Shown here one piece after another: positions 32,558 through 40,940 of a stretch of DNA of 64,000 nt. Numbering within the stretch: position 1 is the stretch's first letter; the number at the start of each line of letters is the position of its first letter. The notes under the pieces are model-generated. The model did no database searches. It saw nothing but the letters and a program-made list of their open reading frames with translations, and was not told the origin of the DNA. The position numbers were made by a program, and so were the translations under genes. The stretch is from Acidobacteriota bacterium (lineage in GTDB: Bacteria > Acidobacteriota > Terriglobia > Terriglobales > Acidobacteriaceae), in NCBI GenBank assembly GCA_025359885.1, contig JANYDG010000050.1, positions 1 through 64,000 on the forward strand, read 5' to 3'.

Positions 32558-33115
32558 ATGCCCTTCGGCCGCCCCAAAAAACCGGCAGACCCACTTGACG
32601 AACCAGCTCTCTACGACTACGCCGTCAAGTCGCTCGGCCGCCGCATGCGCTCCGTCGCCGACCTGCGCCGACTTATGCAGGCCAAGGTCGAGCGAGGCGA
32701 AACCGGCGAGGCAAAGATAGCCGCGGTCATAACTCGTCTCAAAGAATACGGCTTTGTCGACGACACCGCCTTCGCCGAAAACTACACCCAGTTGCGCCAG
32801 CAGAATGAAAAATTCGGCGCGCGCCGCGTCAGCCAGGAACTAAGCCGCAAAGGCATAGCCCGGCAAACCATCACCGACACGATCGAAACCAAGTACGCCG
32901 AGGTCAGCGAAGAAGACCTCGCCCGCCAGCATCTCGACCGCAAGCGCATCCGCAAACCACAGAACGAAAAGGAAACCGCCAGAGTCATGCGCCGCCTCGT
33001 AACCGCTGGCTTCTCCGTCGGAGTTATCTACAAAATCCTCCGCCAATGGCAAGTCCCCGACGAAGCCCTCTCTGCCCTGGACAATCTGGATGAAGAACCC
33101 CTAAGCGATGAATAA
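32558..33115 (+). CDS. recX: RecX regulatory protein
   Basis: A 185-residue protein with the three-helix repeats of RecX: ALYDYAVKSLGRRMRSVADL (17-36), RLKEYGFVDDTAFAENYTQL and FGARRVSQELSRKGIARQTI. RecX caps and disassembles RecA filaments. It starts 3 bp after the peptidase stop and ends about 50 bp before alaS. A recX-alaS order is common across bacteria, often with recA upstream; here recA is replaced by the S9 peptidase. The Lys/Arg-rich N-terminus and acidic C-terminus (NLDEEPLSDE) are ordinary for the family. Confidence 0.9.
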   Translation: MPFGRPKKPADPLDEPALYDYAVKSLGRRMRSVADLRRLMQAKVERGETGEAKIAAVITRLKEYGFVDDTAFAENYTQLRQQNEKFGARRVSQELSRKGIARQTITDTIETKYAEVSEEDLARQHLDRKRIRKPQNEKETARVMRRLVTAGFSVGVIYKILRQWQVPDEALSALDNLDEEPLSDE

Positions 33116-33163
33116 GCGCTCCAGATGCGCCTCAAGCGGCTCGCCAATTACACTGGTTTAGCC

Positions 33164-36142
33164 ATGCAATCACGTTCTGGAAACGAAATCCGCGAACTCT
33201 TTCTGCACTTTTTTGAGACCAAGCAGCACCGCCGCCTGCCTTCGTCCTCACTGGTGCCAGCCAACGACCCGACGCTGCTGTTTACGAATGCCGGGATGAA
33301 CCAGTTCAAAGACCGGTTTACGGGCGCGGAGCAGCGGTCGTACAAGCGCGCCACGACCTCGCAGAAGTGCGTACGCGCCGGCGGCAAGCACAACGACCTC
33401 GAAAACGTAGGCTTCACCCGCCGCCATCATACCTTCTTCGAGATGCTCGGCAACTTCAGCTTCGGCGACTACTTCAAGCGCGAAGCGATCGCCTACGCGT
33501 GGGAACTGATCACCAGCCCGGAGTGGTTCGGCATCCCCAAAGACAAGCTCTATGTCACCATCTTCGAGGGCAACGCCGACGCCGCCCGCGACGACGAAGC
33601 CGAGCAGCTCTGGATCGAGACCGGCGTCCCCAAAGAGCGCATCTTCGAGTTTGGCGCCAAAGATAACTTTTGGCAGATGGGCGAAACCGGCCCCTGCGGC
33701 CCTTGCTCGGAGATTTTCTACGACATGGGCCTCGAAGCCTCCGAGACCGGCAAAGATTTACCCTTCGGCCAGGATGACGCCCGCTATGTGGAGATATGGA
33801 ACCTCGTCTTCATGCAGTTCGACCGCGCGGCCAAAGTAGAAGGCGGCAAAACCGTCGGCTACACACTAACTCCCCTGCCTAAGCCGAGCATTGACACGGG
33901 CATGGGCCTCGAGCGCGTAGCCGCCGTCCTGCAAGGCAAGCTCTCCAATTTTGAAACAGACTTGTTTACACCGCTGATCGCCCGCGCCGCCGAACTGACG
34001 GGACGGAAGGCGGTCCGCCGATCCAGGGACCTCCCGAACGAAGGCCTTGTGGAAGGGCACGACTTCAGTCGTGCCGAAAGCAGCGGAATAGACAACGGGG
34101 CTTCAGCCCCTGAGGGAATTGACGTTTTCGTCCAAAACGCCAGCCTGCGCATCATCGCCGACCACGCCCGCGCCGCCACCTTCCTCATCAACGACGGCGT
34201 CCTCCCCGCCAACGAAGGCCGAGGCTACGTCCTCCGCAAAATCCTCCGCCGCGGCATTCGCCACGGCCGCCTCCTCGGCCAGGAGCAACCCTTTCTCTTC
34301 GAAATGGTCTACGCCGTCCGCGACCTCATGCACGGTGCCTACCCCGAACTCGCAGACTCCGCAGATCGCATCGCCAAGGTCGTGAAAGCCGAAGAGCAGC
34401 AGTTTGACCGCGTACTCAATGACGGAAGCAACCAATTTGAATATGAGCTAGCTTTGGCAGTCGGAAAGGCCGTATACGAGTTCATCAGGAGTAACGGCAG
34501 CCTAGTTGACGCCAACGCCACTCAAACAGAATTTTTGCAGCTATTGAAAACAGGAATAGCTAGCCCCAGAAGAGCAGAGGCCATCAAATGGGGAGTTAGC
34601 TTTCTCTCCGAATATACCGACCAGACTCATTCCTTGAGTTTCCCCGGCGATGTAGCCTTCCACCTCTACGAAACCTTCGGCCTGCCCCTCGACTTCATGG
34701 TCGAAGCCGCTCACGATGCCGGAATAGCCTTCGATGAAGCCGGCTTCGAAGCCGCCCGCGACGAAGAGAAAGCCCGCGCCCGCGCCAGCTGGAAAGGCGC
34801 CGCCACCAAAACCGCTAGCCCGGCCTACCGCGAACTCCCCAAAACCGACTTCCTCGGCTATTCCGCCTGGGTCGCGAATGGCGCGGAAGTGCTGGCCATT
34901 ATTCAAAACGGCGTTGGCGTGCCGGCAGCAGCGGCAGGCGAACTCGTCGACGTCGTCCTCGACCGGACCAGCTTTTATGGCGACTCCGGCGGCCAGGTCG
35001 GCGACACCGGCCGCTTCACCACTCCCGACGGCAACCTCACCATCGCCGAAATCCAGGGCTGCGTCCTCCCCGTCCAGGGCGTCCGCGCCCACAAAGCTCT
35101 CCTCAGGCAGCCCCTCGCCGTCGGCGACCGCGTCAACACCCGCGTCAACGGCGAGCGCCAGCAGTCGATCACCCGCAACCACACCGGCACCCACCTGCTG
35201 CACGCTGCCCTGCGCCAGGTCCTGGGCACCCACGTCAAGCAGGCCGGCTCTCTCGTCGATCCGACCCGGCTGCGCTTCGACTTTTCGCACTTCACCCAGG
35301 TCGCCCCTGAAGAGCTCGAAGAGATCGAGTCCATCGTCAACCGCGAAGTTCTTTCGAATACCCAGGTCCAGACCTTCGCAGACGTCCCCATTGACGAAGC
35401 CGTCAACGAATACCACGCCATGGCCCTCTTCGGCGAAAAGTACGGCGACAAAGTGCGGGTGGTTAAGATTGGCGATTTTTCCACCGAACTTTGCGGCGGC
35501 ATCCATACGGGGGCGACGGGCGAAATTGGTCTGATCAAGATTGTCGGCGAGGGCTCGGTTTCGTCGGGAGTCCGACGGCTTGAGGCTATCAGCGGTACGG
35601 GTTCCCTGGCCGAGTTCCGGCAGGATTTTGCCGTAGCGCAACTGGCAGCCCAGGTAGCTCCCACTCCCGGACTCTCTCCAACTGAGGCGCTGCAATCCAA
35701 GCTGGCGGCCCAGGAAGATGAGCTGAAGAAGCTGCGCCGGGAGCTCGAAGAGCTGCGCATGAAGTCGGCAGCCGGTGGCCTCGACGAAGCGCTGGCTCGC
35801 GCAGTCGAGGTCAAGGGCGTCAAGCTGGTCACGCTCCGGGCTGACTCGCTCGACCGCGGGCAGTTGCGCACGCTGGTCGACAATCTCAAGCAGCGGCTGG
35901 GCGAAGGCGTGGTTGTGCTTGGTTCAGCGCAGCCCGAGGGTAAAGTCGCCATCATTGCCGGGGTTACGCCGGGGCTGATCAAGCGAATTCAGGCCGGTAA
36001 GCTGGTCGGTGCGGTGGCCAAACTTGTTGGCGGCTCAGGCGGTGGCAAGCCGGAGATTGCCGAGGCTGGCGGCAAAGACCAGGCTCAACTCGACGCAGCG
36101 CTGGCGACGGCCCCGGGCATTCTGGGCGAGTTTCTGGGCTAG
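33164..36142 (+). CDS. alaS: alanyl-tRNA synthetase with two in-frame insertions
   Basis: A 992-residue enzyme; the usual length is about 870-890. All domains are present: catalytic core ([36 protein letters not shown]), editing site HTGTHLLH with [13 protein letters not shown], and the C-terminal domain. It charges tRNA-Ala. I start at the ATG at 33164 ([13 protein letters not shown]); the frame is open to 33125. Two stretches have no family counterpart that I know of: residues about 283-318, which are a palindromic repeat element, and about 420-492, which are A+T-richer. Codon bias switches from C-ending to G-ending near 35.45 kb. Confidence 0.95.
34050..34115 (+). repeat. TTCA-loop double-hairpin element inside alaS
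   Basis: Hairpin 1: GGCACGAC-TTCA-GTCGTGCC (34056-34075), perfect 8-bp stem. Hairpin 2: GGGGC-TTCA-GCCCC (34097-34110). The same two hairpins with the same order and nearly the same spacing occur on the minus strand at 39022-39082. In alaS the element is read in frame as [20 protein letters not shown]. Confidence 0.88.
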
Positions 36143-36280
36143 GATTCCCAAAGAACCGTTTACCTTGGGGGAACCTCTATGAGGACGCGGGTTCCGACGA
36201 CGCTCTACGCGCTGTAGAGTCAAACCAGGGTGAACCGTGTTTGCATCCAAAGTTAGCGGTCACTGGAGACAGCAACCGGG

Positions 36281-38434
36281 ATGGGTACTCTGCTGAAGCC
36301 GATGGGTCTGGCTTGCTGCCTGTTGGTGGCTGTCGCAGTGCAGGGGGGTGCCCGGCTTGCCTGGGGCGATGAAAGCGAGTCGGCCTGGGCGCGGGCCGTC
36401 GAACAGCGGACTCAGTTCGAGGCCAGCCCGGCAAATCAGCGCACGCGCGAGCAGTACGAGGCGCTGCTGAACGCATTTCGCGACATTTACCATCAGCGTC
36501 CGGGGGCGGCCAAGGCTCCAGCGGCGGTGGCAGCAGTGGCCGACCTGCTGGCGGAGAAGGGCCGCGTGCTGGCGGACTCCAAGGCTTCTCGAGCGGCGTT
36601 GGGGCAGTATGAGTTCCTCTTGCGGCAATATCCCCGCTCGCCGCAGGTTGAGAGTGTGCAGCTTTTGGAAGCGGAAATCTGCCGCCAGGACCTCAAGGAC
36701 ATGGCCTGCGCCGAGGAGAAGTTTCGCGCTGTGATGGCCGCCGAGCCGGGGAGTTCTTTTGCCGAGCAGGCAGCGATGGAACTCAACAGCATCAAGACTG
36801 GTGGCGCGGCCGCTTCTAATCCATCTGCAAACCAGCCCAGTCCAAAGCCGGAGTCCGCCGCTGAAGAGCCCAGCGCTGCTGCGCCAAAAGAATTCGGTGT
36901 GCCAGTTCAGCAAGCCGCCGGGAATCTGCGGACGACGACATCGCGCAAGATCGTCGCGATTACCGGCATGCGGCACTGGTCCAATCCGACCTCGACGCGC
37001 ATTGCTATCGATCTGGGCGGCAAGGTGGAGTATGAGGCGGCGCGGGTGCCCAATCCTGACCGTATCTTCTTTGATCTGCATGGGGCGCGGCTGGCCTCAG
37101 GATTGAACGGGCACCAGGTTGAGGTGGTGGACGACGGCTATCTCAAGCGGATCCGCGCAGCGCAGTTTCTGCCCAATGTCACGCGCGTGGTGCTCGACGT
37201 GACCGAGGTGAGCGAGTACTCCGCGTTTCTGCTGCCGGACCCTTGGCGGCTGATTATCGACATTCACAGTGACAAGGGGAATGCGAAGGGAATCGCGAAT
37301 CGGGGCAAGGAAGCTGCGGTTCTACAGCCTTCACAGCCCGTTCCCGTGCCCGTTTTGTCGCGGCACAAAGCCGCCGCGGCGGTGGACAATACGCTGGCTG
37401 ACGTGGCTGGATTGAGCAGCGAGCCGGCCAAGGTGGAAGCTACGGCGAGGCCGACGAGCGAACCGGTGTCAGCTCATGTGCCCGCGACTTTGGCGACAGA
37501 CCCGAATGCAGAACCGGCAAAGGGGCAAACAGGGCAGACCAATGCGCTCTCCGGCCAGAGGCGTAGCAAGAAGCGCCGCACTTCAGTGGAGCCTCAGGAG
37601 GCACAGGAACTGCCGCATGCTGCCGAGCCGACTGCGGATGGGCAGCGTTCGCTGGTGCGGGCGCTGGGCCTGAAGGTTGGGCGGATCGTGATTGATGCGG
37701 GTCATGGCGGGCATGATTCCGGGACGCTTGGGCCTGGAGGCATTGAGGAGAAGGACGTTGTGCTCGATGTGGCGCTGCGGACAGGCAAGCTGCTGCGCCA
37801 GCGCCTTGGGGCGGAGATTGTCTACACGCGGTCGGATGACACGTTCGTTCCGCTGGAAACGCGAACGGCGATTGCAAACAAGGCGCAGGCAGATCTGTTC
37901 CTGTCGATTCATGGGAACTCGAGCAGCGAGCCCTCGGCGCGCGGTGTGGAGACGTACTATCTCAACTTCACCTCAGACCCGAATGCGCTGGAGGTTGCGG
38001 CGCGGGAGAATGCGGTTTCAAGCCAGTCAGTGCATCAGCTCTCTGACCTGGTGCGGAAGATTACGCTCAAGGACAAGATCGACGAATCGCGGGAATTCGC
38101 GGCCGACGTCGATGCAGGGCTGTTTGCCGGATTACGCGGCGGCAATTCGGGATTGAAGGACCGCGGCGTGAAGAAGGCTCCGTTTGTGGTGCTGATTGGG
38201 GCGCAAATGCCTTCGATATTGGCGGAGATCAGCTTTATCACAAATCCCGACGATGCTGAGCAGCTACAAACCGGAAGCTATCGGCAGCGGATTGCGCAGG
38301 CGCTCGACTCTGGCGTTGAGCGCTACCTGAACGGGCTGAGCGGGCTGCGAGCGCGGAGCGACGCAAGCGACCCTTCGATTCACAGTTCTAATCGGACGAC
38401 TGTGGTGAGCAAAGTGGAGCCTGCGGGGCGGTAA
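36281..38434 (+). CDS. exported N-acetylmuramoyl-L-alanine amidase (TPR-like, AMIN, amidase_3)
   Basis: A 717-residue protein: signal peptide (residues 1-28, cut near LAWG), a helical TPR/tol-pal-like region (about 35-170), an AMIN domain (about 225-335, ITGMRHWSNPTSTRIAIDL to PWRLIIDIHSD), a Pro/Ala-rich linker and amidase_3 from about 467 (RIVIDAGHGGHDSGT). Zinc ligands are His in DAGHGGHD, Glu in GIEEKD and His in LSIHGNS, and the catalytic Glu is in LAEISFITN. It cuts the amide between muramic acid and the stem peptide at division; AMIN domains usually target such enzymes. The TPR-like front is a non-standard addition compared with AmiC. Confidence 0.92.
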   Translation: MGTLLKPMGLACCLLVAVAVQGGARLAWGDESESAWARAVEQRTQFEASPANQRTREQYEALLNAFRDIYHQRPGAAKAPAAVAAVADLLAEKGRVLADSKASRAALGQYEFLLRQYPRSPQVESVQLLEAEICRQDLKDMACAEEKFRAVMAAEPGSSFAEQAAMELNSIKTGGAAASNPSANQPSPKPESAAEEPSAAAPKEFGVPVQQAAGNLRTTTSRKIVAITGMRHWSNPTSTRIAIDLGGKVEYEAARVPNPDRIFFDLHGARLASGLNGHQVEVVDDGYLKRIRAAQFLPNVTRVVLDVTEVSEYSAFLLPDPWRLIIDIHSDKGNAKGIANRGKEAAVLQPSQPVPVPVLSRHKAAAAVDNTLADVAGLSSEPAKVEATARPTSEPVSAHVPATLATDPNAEPAKGQTGQTNALSGQRRSKKRRTSVEPQEAQELPHAAEPTADGQRSLVRALGLKVGRIVIDAGHGGHDSGTLGPGGIEEKDVVLDVALRTGKLLRQRLGAEIVYTRSDDTFVPLETRTAIANKAQADLFLSIHGNSSSEPSARGVETYYLNFTSDPNALEVAARENAVSSQSVHQLSDLVRKITLKDKIDESREFAADVDAGLFAGLRGGNSGLKDRGVKKAPFVVLIGAQMPSILAEISFITNPDDAEQLQTGSYRQRIAQALDSGVERYLNGLSGLRARSDASDPSIHSSNRTTVVSKVEPAGR

Positions 38435-38475
38435 AGCGTGTTTACTCCTTAATTACAGGAAGGGTTTGAAAATAA

Positions 38476-38600
38476 GGGGGGGGGGAAGGGGGGGAGGGGG
38501 TACCCCTTTTTCAGTGAATTTTGTGCATTTTGCGTGGGTTAATATTGCAATCTGCAATTTTTCATGCCCTTGTTGGTTCGACGCTCGCGGCCTGGGTGGT
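38476..38600. repeat. G-run/ATTGCA-dyad repeat (copy 2)
   Basis: G-run (38476-38500, interrupted by AA and A), TACCCCTTTTT, GTGCATTTTGCG, then AATATTGCAATCTGCAAT with the perfect dyad ATTGCA-N3-TGCAAT at 38544-38558, then TTTTTCATGCCC and GGCCTGGGTGG. It matches the reverse complement of about 5105-5242, so the two copies are in inverted orientation 33 kb apart. Confidence 0.78.
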
Positions 38601-39021
38601 TTGATAGGGTGGGCTTTGAGGGGAACTGTGAGTTCCGCCCTTGACAATGGAGCCGTCAAGAATGGGCAACCAGCCCCCGGCCTACCAGGTTGCCGATCAC
38701 AATTAAAAGATTGACAGACTACAAGGTATGGATTGCCAGCTTACAAGATATGGCTTGTGGACCTGGCTTTTTGTCTGGGGTGGGCTTCCTGAGACATCTT
38801 TTCATTTTTGGAATTGCATCTCTATGATGCGCTTTGAGATGGAAATGATCGGCAACCGGGTTGGTTGGGTTTGCGGGACCCAGCCTCGACGATGGAGTTG
38901 TCATGGATGGGTCAAACGGCAGGAATCACAGACAGCGGGCAAGGGCAACAGCGATTACCGAAGCAGATTGCCGGCGGCAATGACAGCCAAAAGGGCCAGG
39001 GTAACCGGCAATCCGCACCTG

Positions 39022-39082
39022 GCAGGGGCTGAAGCGCCCTTGAGATTATTAGCTTTATCGGCACGACTGAAGTCGTACGCTT
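39022..39082 (-). repeat. TTCA-loop double-hairpin element, intergenic copy
   Basis: On the minus strand: GTACGAC-TTCA-GTCGTGC followed, 20-odd bases later, by GGGCGC-TTCA-GCCCC. It aligns with the element inside alaS (34050-34115). Read in the matching frame it gives AYDFSRADKANNLKGASAPA, close to the alaS insert. Confidence 0.85.
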
Positions 39083-39120
39083 TCACAAAACTTTGATCGC
39101 TGGGGTTTGTTCCCAAACAA

Positions 39121-39156
39121 AAAGGCCCTGCATGCAAACGCGTGCAGGGCCGTTTG
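39121..39156 (-). terminator. intrinsic terminator of glgP
   Basis: Stem GGCCCTGCA (39124-39132) and TGCAGGGCC (39143-39151) with a ten-base loop. In the minus direction it is followed by TTTTTGTTTG. It lies just beyond the glgP stop. Confidence 0.9.
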
Positions 39157-39170
39157 AGTGATGGCTGGGT

Positions 39171-40940
39171 TTATCTGTTTGCGCCTACGGTTTCGCGGAC
39201 TTCTGAGGGGGTGATGAGTGAGACAGGGTAGTAGGCGTTGCGGATGTACTGTTTGACCATGCGATTGGTGTTGAAGTACGAGCCGTTGTAGGCGAGGGTG
39301 GTGCGCATCAGATTGCCCCAGGCTTCGGGGGACTTGAGGTAGAGGGGCACGACTGCGTTTTCGAGCTTTTCGTAGAGTGAGGTGGCTTCGGCCGCGTCGT
39401 CTACGCCGTCTTCGATGGCCCAGCCGGTGTAGTGTTCGAGGCAGCCTTCGATCCACCATCCATCCAAAATCGACAGGCTGGGGACGCCGTTCAGTGCAGC
39501 TTTCATGCCGCTGGTGCCGGAGGCCTCGTAGGGGCGCTTGGGGGTGTTGACCCAGACATCGACGCCGGCGGTGAGCAGTGCGCCGAGTTGCCAGTCGTAG
39601 TTCTCGAGGTAGACGACGCGGAGGTCGACGCCGGAGTACTTCTGGGCCTTTTCGATAACGCTGTGGATGAGAGCCTTGCCGGGCTCGTCCATGGGATGGG
39701 CTTTTCCGGCATAGAGAATCTGCAGTCCGCCGGCAGACTTGGCGATTTCGAGCAGGCGCTCCGGATCGGAGAAGAGCAGGTCGGCGCGCTTGTAGGTGGC
39801 GGCGCGGCGGGCAAAGCCGAGCGTGAGCACCTTGGGATTGAGCACCAGGCCGGTGCGCGAGGCGACTTCGGCGAGGAGGGTTTCCTTGGCCTGTGCGTGG
39901 GCGGCGATGATGTCCGGCAGGGGAATCTCGATCGCGTTGCGCATGTAGAGGTTGTCGCGCCGCCAGTTTGGGATGTTCCTGTCGAGCAGCTCCTGAAACT
40001 GGGGCGAGAGCCAGGTGGGCGCGTGGACCCCGTTGGTGATGGAGTCGATCTTGTATTCGGGGAACATCTCGCGGGAGACGTTGCCGTGCTGGAGTGCGAC
40101 GCCATTGACGTAGCGCGAGAAGACCAGGGCGACGTAGGTCATGTTCAACATGCCTTCGTGACAACAGCCGAGAGACTGCAGGCGGGCGGTGCGTTCGTAG
40201 CCGAGAATGCGGTTTGACTGTTCGATGGAGAAGCGGTCATGGCCTGCGGGCACGGGTGTGTGAGTGGTGAACACACACTTCTGGCGCACGGCGTTGACGT
40301 CGACGGGGGTGACCTTGTTGAGTGGGCCGCCGCCGAGCTGTGCTTCGAGCAGGCCCAGGGTGAGGAAAGCGGCGTGGCCTTCGTTCATGTGGTACACATT
40401 GACGCGATGGCCGAGGGCGTTGAGAATGCGGACGCCGCCCATGCCGAGGACGATTTCCTGCTGGAGGCGGTAGTTGGAGTCGCCGCCGTAGAGGTGATCG
40501 GTGAGGCTGCGGTCCCAAGGGGAGTTTTCCGGGAGGTCGGTGTCGAGCAGGTAGATGGGGATCACGTGCCCGGCGCGGCCGGCCATGTCATAGCGCCAGG
40601 CGCGGAGGGTGACGGTGCGGTCTTCGACGGTGACGGTGACGCGGGGGGCCTCTTCGGTGCAGAAATCTTCGACGATCCAGGGTTGAATGTCTTCGGTCTG
40701 CTTGCCCTCAGCGTCGAGGAGCTGGCGGAAATAGCCCTTGCGGTGCAGGAGGGTGAAGGCGACCAGAGGGGTGCCGAGATCGGCGGCGGAACGAAGTGTA
40801 TCGCCGGCGAGTACGCCGAGGCCGCCAGAGTAGGTCGGCATGCCGGGGTTGATCGCAATTTCCATGGAGAAGTAGGCCACAACGCCGTTTTGAGGAAAGG
40901 ATTCGTAGGCGTGTTGCTTAAGCAAAGTAGGGTTGGACAT
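39171..40940 (-). CDS. glgP: alpha-glucan phosphorylase, short form
   Basis: A 589-residue phosphorylase. It has VAYFSMEIAINPGMPTYSGG (21-40), the GLGVLAGDTLRSAADLG nucleotide-site region, VYHMNEGHAAF, ITNGVHAPTW, a KRADLLFSDPERLLE region and the pyridoxal-phosphate site EASGTSGMKAALNG with the Lys near residue 478. Length and motifs match the short (Thermus/archaeal-type) class rather than the 800-residue glycogen phosphorylases. It releases glucose-1-phosphate from alpha-1,4-glucans. GGAG precedes the ATG by 14 bases, and an intrinsic terminator follows. It is separated from galK by 448 bp. Confidence 0.93.
   Translation of the reverse strand: MSNPTLLKQHAYESFPQNGVVAYFSMEIAINPGMPTYSGGLGVLAGDTLRSAADLGTPLVAFTLLHRKGYFRQLLDAEGKQTEDIQPWIVEDFCTEEAPRVTVTVEDRTVTLRAWRYDMAGRAGHVIPIYLLDTDLPENSPWDRSLTDHLYGGDSNYRLQQEIVLGMGGVRILNALGHRVNVYHMNEGHAAFLTLGLLEAQLGGGPLNKVTPVDVNAVRQKCVFTTHTPVPAGHDRFSIEQSNRILGYERTARLQSLGCCHEGMLNMTYVALVFSRYVNGVALQHGNVSREMFPEYKIDSITNGVHAPTWLSPQFQELLDRNIPNWRRDNLYMRNAIEIPLPDIIAAHAQAKETLLAEVASRTGLVLNPKVLTLGFARRAATYKRADLLFSDPERLLEIAKSAGGLQILYAGKAHPMDEPGKALIHSVIEKAQKYSGVDLRVVYLENYDWQLGALLTAGVDVWVNTPKRPYEASGTSGMKAALNGVPSLSILDGWWIEGCLEHYTGWAIEDGVDDAAEATSLYEKLENAVVPLYLKSPEAWGNLMRTTLAYNGSYFNTNRMVKQYIRNAYYPVSLITPSEVRETVGANR

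Follow-up and report, generated by a model that had tools for sequence, protein, structure and literature searches.

How an essential enzyme comes to carry two perfect DNA hairpins within its reading frame is the question raised by alaS in the stretch of 64,000 nt that was analysed (the window), which belongs to an acidobacterial genome of 4.2 Mb in 125 contigs (G000). Mobile palindromes in coding genes are best known from Rickettsia, i.e., from obligate intracellular bacteria with decaying genes. The alaS open reading frame (ORF; 33125–36142, + strand) encodes alanyl-tRNA synthetase with 867 bits for TIGR00344 (cut-off 457 bits) and 608 bits for PF01411; an internal ATG at 33167 is a possible alternative start. 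Relative to the 66-nt empty linker of its relatives, the gene contains an in-frame insert of 114 nt or 38 codons (34004–34117, +), the left edge of which was placed by alignment to this linker. The downstream part of the insert is a unit of 71 nt, translated into 24 residues (34047–34117, +). It comprises hairpin 1 (34056–34075, +; 8 bp, loop TTCA, GGCACGAC-TTCA-GTCGTGCC), a spacer of 21 nt that was variable in the alignments of copies (34076–34096, +), and hairpin 2 (34097–34110, +; 5 bp, loop TTCA, GGGGC-TTCA-GCCCC), followed by a conserved TGAGG foot.

Sequences and positions of both hairpins had been given exactly in the preliminary description of the locus. The interval assigned there to the element (34050–34115) encloses the hairpins, but the insert begins further upstream. 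Its residues (about 283–318) correspond to 294–331 in ORF numbering and to 280–317 when counted from the ATG at 33167, which seems to have been the numbering used. The estimate of about 35 extra residues agrees with the 38 codons in excess of the relatives' common 66-nt form and with the 35 codons in excess of the close relative G011. A location inside the catalytic half was not upheld: the insert lies in a linker which we take to follow the N-terminal catalytic core, and not in the core itself. In 2,000 dinucleotide shuffles of the alaS ORF, a pair of this kind (8 bp with a loop of four, plus 5 bp with the same loop within 60 nt) never occurred, and hairpins of 8 bp with a loop of four appeared 0.08 times on average versus once in the real gene. 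The models described below do not cover the first 43 nt of the insert (34004–34046), which precede the unit; this stretch contains a GGCGG-T-CCGCC palindrome and is possibly a decayed element. A second stretch of AlaS (34440–34640, residues 439–504 approximately) is variable among relatives, and search alignments break there in many genomes.

The unit is repeated throughout G000, as was found in the genome search that the preliminary description had proposed. The 20-mer of hairpin 1 had 10 forward and 11 reverse matches with up to three mismatches, compared with 0 and 0 for the reversed control; some places are counted on both strands, because the 20-mer almost equals its reverse complement. 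BLAST with the 91 nt around the hairpin returned 38 places at E ≤ 10, of which the weakest may be chance. Two covariance models were built, R1 from 12 sequences including the alaS copy and R2 from nine; at E ≤ 0.01 they gave at least 47 and at least 37 matches in G000, respectively, in overlapping sets. The alaS copy scored 81.4 bits with R1, which was trained on it, and 50.9 bits with R2, which was built without it. A second copy in the window (39018–39088, −; 70.2 bits with R1, whose training set includes it) was judged intergenic: it lies 82 nt past the stop codon of an ORF that by eye resembles alpha-glucan phosphorylase, and the ORFs overlapping it look spurious. All 50 related genomes chosen contained matches to the unit; the copy counts per genome are lower bounds, scored among the 100–150 best candidates in each. 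Several identical or nearly identical 71-nt copies occur in a single genome (L343–L348, G050), which suggests recent amplification.

According to the aligned copies, the consensus of about 71 nt exists in two types and reads GAAAGGGCACGRCTTCAGYCGTGCCG or GAAGGGTACGGGCTTCAGCCCGTAC, about 21 variable nucleotides and then GGGGCTTYAGCCCCTGAGGGA. This structure resembles a REP doublet (REPIN) in two respects. It consists of short palindromes in many dispersed copies (20–40 bp expected, hairpin 1 spans 20 bp), and the palindromes are paired in inverted orientation, hairpin 1 with the foot AAGG on its 5′ side and hairpin 2 with the foot TGAGG on its 3′ side, about 21 nt apart. Read outward, the feet resemble each other without being identical. 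The foot GTAG/GTGG or CGTC expected of a REP was absent from the consensus (GAAAGG...CCTGAGG); atypical REP structures have been reported for some subclasses. Covariation in the R1 alignment was slight.

Three Y1_Tnp genes were found in G000. Those on contigs C5 and C26 pass the model for the REP-associated tyrosine transposase (RAYT; NF047646, cut-off 80) with 110 and 104 bits, and both lie between a + copy of the unit and a − copy, as expected of a cognate RAYT. The same layout was detected at L397 (G011) and L399 (G015), and also at L381 (G010), where one side is weak. R1 was applied to 23 of the 30 transposase loci and revealed this layout at five (L380, L398, L397, L399, L381); L379 and L405 had copies on one side, and L382 and L401 had scattered matches. 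R1, the only model used here, found no copies at 14 of the 23, including all three loci of G001 and the single one of G005. The transposase frame in L077:1473–2072 (G000:C5) continues through the flanking repeat copy to its stop codon, antisense to the unit.

Within the genus, copy number followed the presence of the transposase gene. Among 16 genomes (15 of the genus and G015), the eight with a gene passing NF047646 had 55, 71, 63, 62, 74, 49, 8, and 25 R1 matches versus 0, 13, 2, 1, 1, 1, 1, and 0 in the eight without (Mann–Whitney p = 0.0012; p = 0.0016 for all 25 genomes); G006 and G014, which have partial transposase matches below the cut-off, were classed as lacking the gene. In the nine genomes of a second family no such link was seen (4, 5, 1, and 3 matches with the gene vs. 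0, 9, 1, 12, and 3 without; p = 1.0), where R1 may miss repeats because it was built from G000.

The dispersed copies, the inverted copies flanking RAYT genes, and the copy number following the gene within the genus together strongly support the unit as a REP doublet with a RAYT as its probable mover. The insert in alaS is thus very probably a copy of an Acidobacteriaceae REP doublet that was moved by a RAYT and landed in a tolerant loop, with the protein still working. As a Y1/HuH single-strand nuclease, the RAYT would recognise the hairpins and move them as single-stranded DNA. The unit usually leaves one of the three sense frames free of stop codons, the others mostly not, and encodes a hydrophilic peptide in that frame. 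An insertion of 72 nt with a stop-free frame in a tolerant loop would therefore yield a working protein and survive selection. For AlaS, a function retained with the insert is suggested by the single AlaS match in G000 together with the presumed essentiality of the gene.

Six of the 52 copies and variants listed for G000 are in-frame parts of identifiable genes: alaS, argS, dnaX, rarA, meaB-mce, and dusB (the other 46 should not be taken as intergenic one and all). The NCBIfam cut-offs were passed by alaS, dnaX, dusB, and the epimerase of meaB-mce; for argS (its ORF is truncated at the locus edge), meaB, and rarA, the best matches remained under the NCBIfam cut-off, yet above the Pfam cut-offs. 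The copies in dnaX and dusB are diverged variants (approximately 34–35 bits), and the tail of dnaX varies among relatives, which hampered a comparison of filled and empty genes. The inserts of argS and dusB were restricted to G000 among the aligned relatives (eight informative ones each; argS of G009 ends before the site). That of rarA is shared, with a similar spacer, by G000 and its sister G011 and was therefore inherited; it is absent from G001, G003, G005, G007, G009, and G010. The copy in meaB-mce is antisense, the sole such case noticed in an identified gene. MeaB and methylmalonyl-CoA epimerase form one ORF (L095, G000:C97; L159, L148), and where the two domains join, G000, G005, and G011 have hairpins of different types. 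Several candidates were not counted as insertions: L074 had no Pfam family, L081 no NCBIfam family, and the NCBIfam match of L083 starts well after the unit; the C5 sense frame and the frames on C50, C1 (the second one), C3, C72, C106, and C124 were judged spurious by eye.

In other genomes, 60 high-scoring places were fetched. Three were alaS; the remaining 57 had been chosen, not drawn at random, and some are identical within G050. Ten of the 57 lie in frame in long genes, nine of them with NCBIfam matches, in eight further genomes. The hosts resemble hemD, pcrA, recN, yoaA, mnmE, a uvrC-like gene, argS, and a FAD-oxidase-like gene. Curated NCBIfam cut-offs were passed by yoaA and mnmE only; the others fell short of them with their best matches, and several of these ORFs are truncated at the end of a contig or locus. 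The in-gene count includes L328, for which NCBIfam had no match at 1e-20, but not L343, with an open frame of at least 61 codons on each side. In yoaA the unit occupies, by eye, the same linker in two genomes, and in argS it occupies the linker that is also used in G000. The mnmE gene of L374 (G075, the genome of L251, Occallatibacter savannae AB23) holds three tandem, partly decayed units, as if from repeated insertion or duplication in one loop. Among the best 30 of 70 copies in Terracidiphilus gabretensis, alaS was the only clearly identified in-gene case; no family was found for the open frames L291, L293, L300, L304, L308, and L316, and the unit precedes the known domain in L314 and L318. 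Insertion in frame into unrelated genes, with the frame open through the palindrome, as known for elements of the RPE type, was thus found in G000 and in other genomes, and the presence of the unit in the frame of genes held to be essential is strongly supported at the sequence level.

The in-gene copies share orientation and frame. All ten are in sense orientation and use one common frame, and antisense frame −1 is likewise free of stop codons in every one of them. Among the 47 other copies, antisense −1 is open in 34, the used sense frame in 34, and the remaining sense frames in 13 and 1. Stop codons therefore help to account for the frame, but not for the orientation, because antisense −1 is equally open. 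The codon after GHDFSRA specifies Asp or Glu in 20 of 21 in-gene copies versus 18 of 42 others (Fisher p = 3e-5), and in 9 of 10 versus 18 of 42 when alaS is left out (p = 0.008); identical copies within a genome were collapsed for this test, and rows related by descent were retained. The encoded peptide is hydrophilic and fits a pattern of ten residues followed by x6-GALAPEG. The open frames and this amino acid bias support the view that the peptide is translated and tolerated, which we infer. An AlphaFold model of AlaS residues 15–692 from 47 sequences had a mean pLDDT of 70.3. Residues 284–316, nearly the whole insert, fell below 50 and were modelled mostly as coil with short helical turns between helices 262–277 and 325–342, which hints weakly at a disordered loop; the model is mediocre and the stretch 27–101 is equally poor, so low pLDDT is weak evidence here.

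The distribution of the insert was followed in AlaS of related bacteria. A scan with six search peptides provided the best 80 of 161 loci; with 30 earlier loci added and 12 duplicates and two unreadable ones removed, 96 rows were obtained. The insert is missing from most of these relatives, the sister G011 included. An insert present in all acidobacterial AlaS proteins and similar to no other element, the outcome that the preliminary description had named as fatal to its proposal, is excluded, with 85 of 96 rows devoid of the peptide pattern. The 11 filled rows are G000, G005, Terracidiphilus gabretensis S55 (L209), and eight further genomes. This fraction is not an unbiased rate, because one search peptide of six, EGIDVFVQ, is partly derived from the insert and the ranking by similarity may favour filled genes. 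One filled row has two tandem copies and another a second, decayed copy. Filled genomes are richer in the unit (nine genomes with 41–100 copies vs. 41 genomes with 1–100; one-sided p = 0.005, where 100 stands for at least 100 and species are not independent).

Among the other accounts of this pattern, a single ancient insertion into alaS, inherited and often lost, with palindromes that look fresh through conservation or gene conversion, survives best and is nevertheless unlikely. It would explain why linker, orientation, frame, and the 21-nt spacer length are the same in 11 of 11 filled rows, and the rarA copy sets a precedent for inheritance. The alaS spacers of different species are slightly more alike than those of other copies (11.2 of 21 letters vs. 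9.9; 19 of 5,000 permutations as high), and some alaS copies therefore share ancestry. L209 and L210, which look like such a case, agree at 18 of 21 spacer letters and in the flank; their two hairpins are the same, whereas third positions of the adjoining flank differ, which suggests palindrome constraint or rewriting from other copies. A comparison of alaS spacers with copies in their own genomes yielded too few host copies that fitted the pattern used. Against one insertion stands the tree of the 96 rows, calculated with the linker removed: the labels filled and empty change 11 times (mean of shuffled labels 10.6), and at least five changes, which by count alone may be gains or losses, are forced by well-supported branches. 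Moreover, the empty 66-nt linker (approximately GVxNDVxNAS) remains recognisable both in L254, which falls outside the main group, and in lineages within the group. Deletion would hardly restore it, and repeated gain is favoured because it is similar in so many lineages. The length difference between filled and empty is exactly 72 nt in two pairs (L225/L257 and L210/L241) and another in the remaining pairs, and the spacers of G000 and G005 share just 8 of 21 letters. The AlaS site has thus probably been filled independently and recurrently, the loop behind the catalytic core having probably taken such copies several times.

An exchange of alaS linkers among species, by horizontal transfer or recombination, could have spread one insert and would account for the scattered distribution and the empty sister species, but is improbable: almost every filled species has an upstream flank of its own length and sequence next to the unit, and with argS and yoaA each filled at one linker in two species, alaS is not alone. 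A regulatory structure in the alaS mRNA, or a signal for ribosome bypass with the peptide not made or irrelevant, appears plausible in view of the stable hairpins, with hairpin 1 stems identical in all 11 alaS rows, but is very improbable, as an Rfam search of 33000–40000 returned zero matches and the unit occurs in several unrelated genes and many other places; bypass, moreover, would need neither the stop-free gene frame of the counted in-gene copies nor their preference for Asp/Glu. An assembly artefact or chimeric metagenome bin, which the 125 contigs of the window's genome and the predominance of MAGs among the named relatives might suggest, can be dismissed, the same insert being present in T. 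gabretensis S55 and in bins apparently from several projects. The insertion of RAYT-moved REP doublets remains the preferred reading. Only tentatively do we extend it to a family that has become a gene-tolerated element, with one stop-free hydrophilic frame and residue preferences, and that colonises loops of essential proteins, the AlaS linker having been filled independently several times through preferential insertion or usefulness of the peptide.

The comparison with the Rickettsia RPE, drawn in the preliminary description, applies to the behaviour of the unit but not to its membership, since the unit, linked as it is to a REP-associated transposase, belongs to the REP doublets. We know of no transposase linked to RPE; here, RAYT genes are flanked by the unit. 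As far as the accessible parts of PMC2229807 and PMC10969869 describe them, RPE likewise are palindromic repeats that have entered unrelated genes in frame and are, at least in part, translated and tolerated, but they are longer (about 150 bp; PMC10969869) and have other hosts. RPE-4 and RPE-6 were placed among CGTC repeats in PMC3733652.

The likeness to REP/BIME/REPIN elements and their RAYTs includes inverted short palindromes, tens of copies, and inverted copies flanking a Y1 gene (REPtron), as presented in the available sections of PMC3733652 and PMC6006769. Known REPs, too, lie in frame in genes of DNA repair and in RNA-related ones, among them genes for tRNA synthetases; over half of the intragenic ones are dimers or groups encoding 20–30 residues, often in repair genes, and one occupies about the same site in recB of two Xanthomonas species (PMC3733652, accessible text). 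REPs in frame inside tnpA_REP genes and class 3 systems in Acidobacteria are mentioned in PMC6006769. Unlike canonical REPs, the acidobacterial unit lacks their foot, is dominated by one sense frame, and occurs at the same AlaS linker in scattered species. The family was not found in the accessible parts of these two publications. A search at title and abstract level, mainly of open-access publications, found no report of in-frame REPs in acidobacterial genes, in agreement with the earlier statement that an acidobacterial equivalent is not known; in-frame REPs in genes of other bacteria have, however, been published (PMC3733652, in part). The acidobacterial unit is accordingly a variation on a known theme, in-frame REPs in genes having been described before (Rickettsia RPE; PMC3733652, same part).

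What the soil acidobacteria add is a candidate mobilising enzyme beside the repeats, relatives with filled and with empty sites, and a single loop of an essential enzyme in which the unit recurs. This allows tests of how palindromes enter reading frames, of whether the orientation bias stems from insertion or selection, and of effects on tRNA synthetases and repair enzymes. For annotators, GHDFSRA-like peptides in acidobacterial proteins are a warning of possible repeat origin.

Two other acidobacterial systems were compared. The class 3 TnpA_Y1 of Acidobacteria and Planctomycetes (Solibacter usitatus has about 600 hairpins) also combine a Y1 enzyme with high-copy hairpins of atypical foot, according to the accessible text of PMC6006769. 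In contrast to these, the present enzymes are matches to the REP_Tyr_transpos equivalog with the motif YIALNP or YIQLNP (Y---N, class 2-like by eye, not Y----Q), and a 5′ CnGA foot is not evident. The TIRYT of Koribacter versatilis are likewise acidobacterial tyrosine transposase genes flanked by inverted repeats, but their flanks are terminal inverted repeats unrelated to REPs (PMC3733652, as far as available). The third Y1 gene of G000 (G000:C62:8741–9064, L037) lies amid another repeat, GCGCCGTAGGCGCAAAGGCC with a CCCCGCGCTTCAGCGTGGGG palindrome, which contains GTAG and possibly represents a second, GTAG-type REP set.
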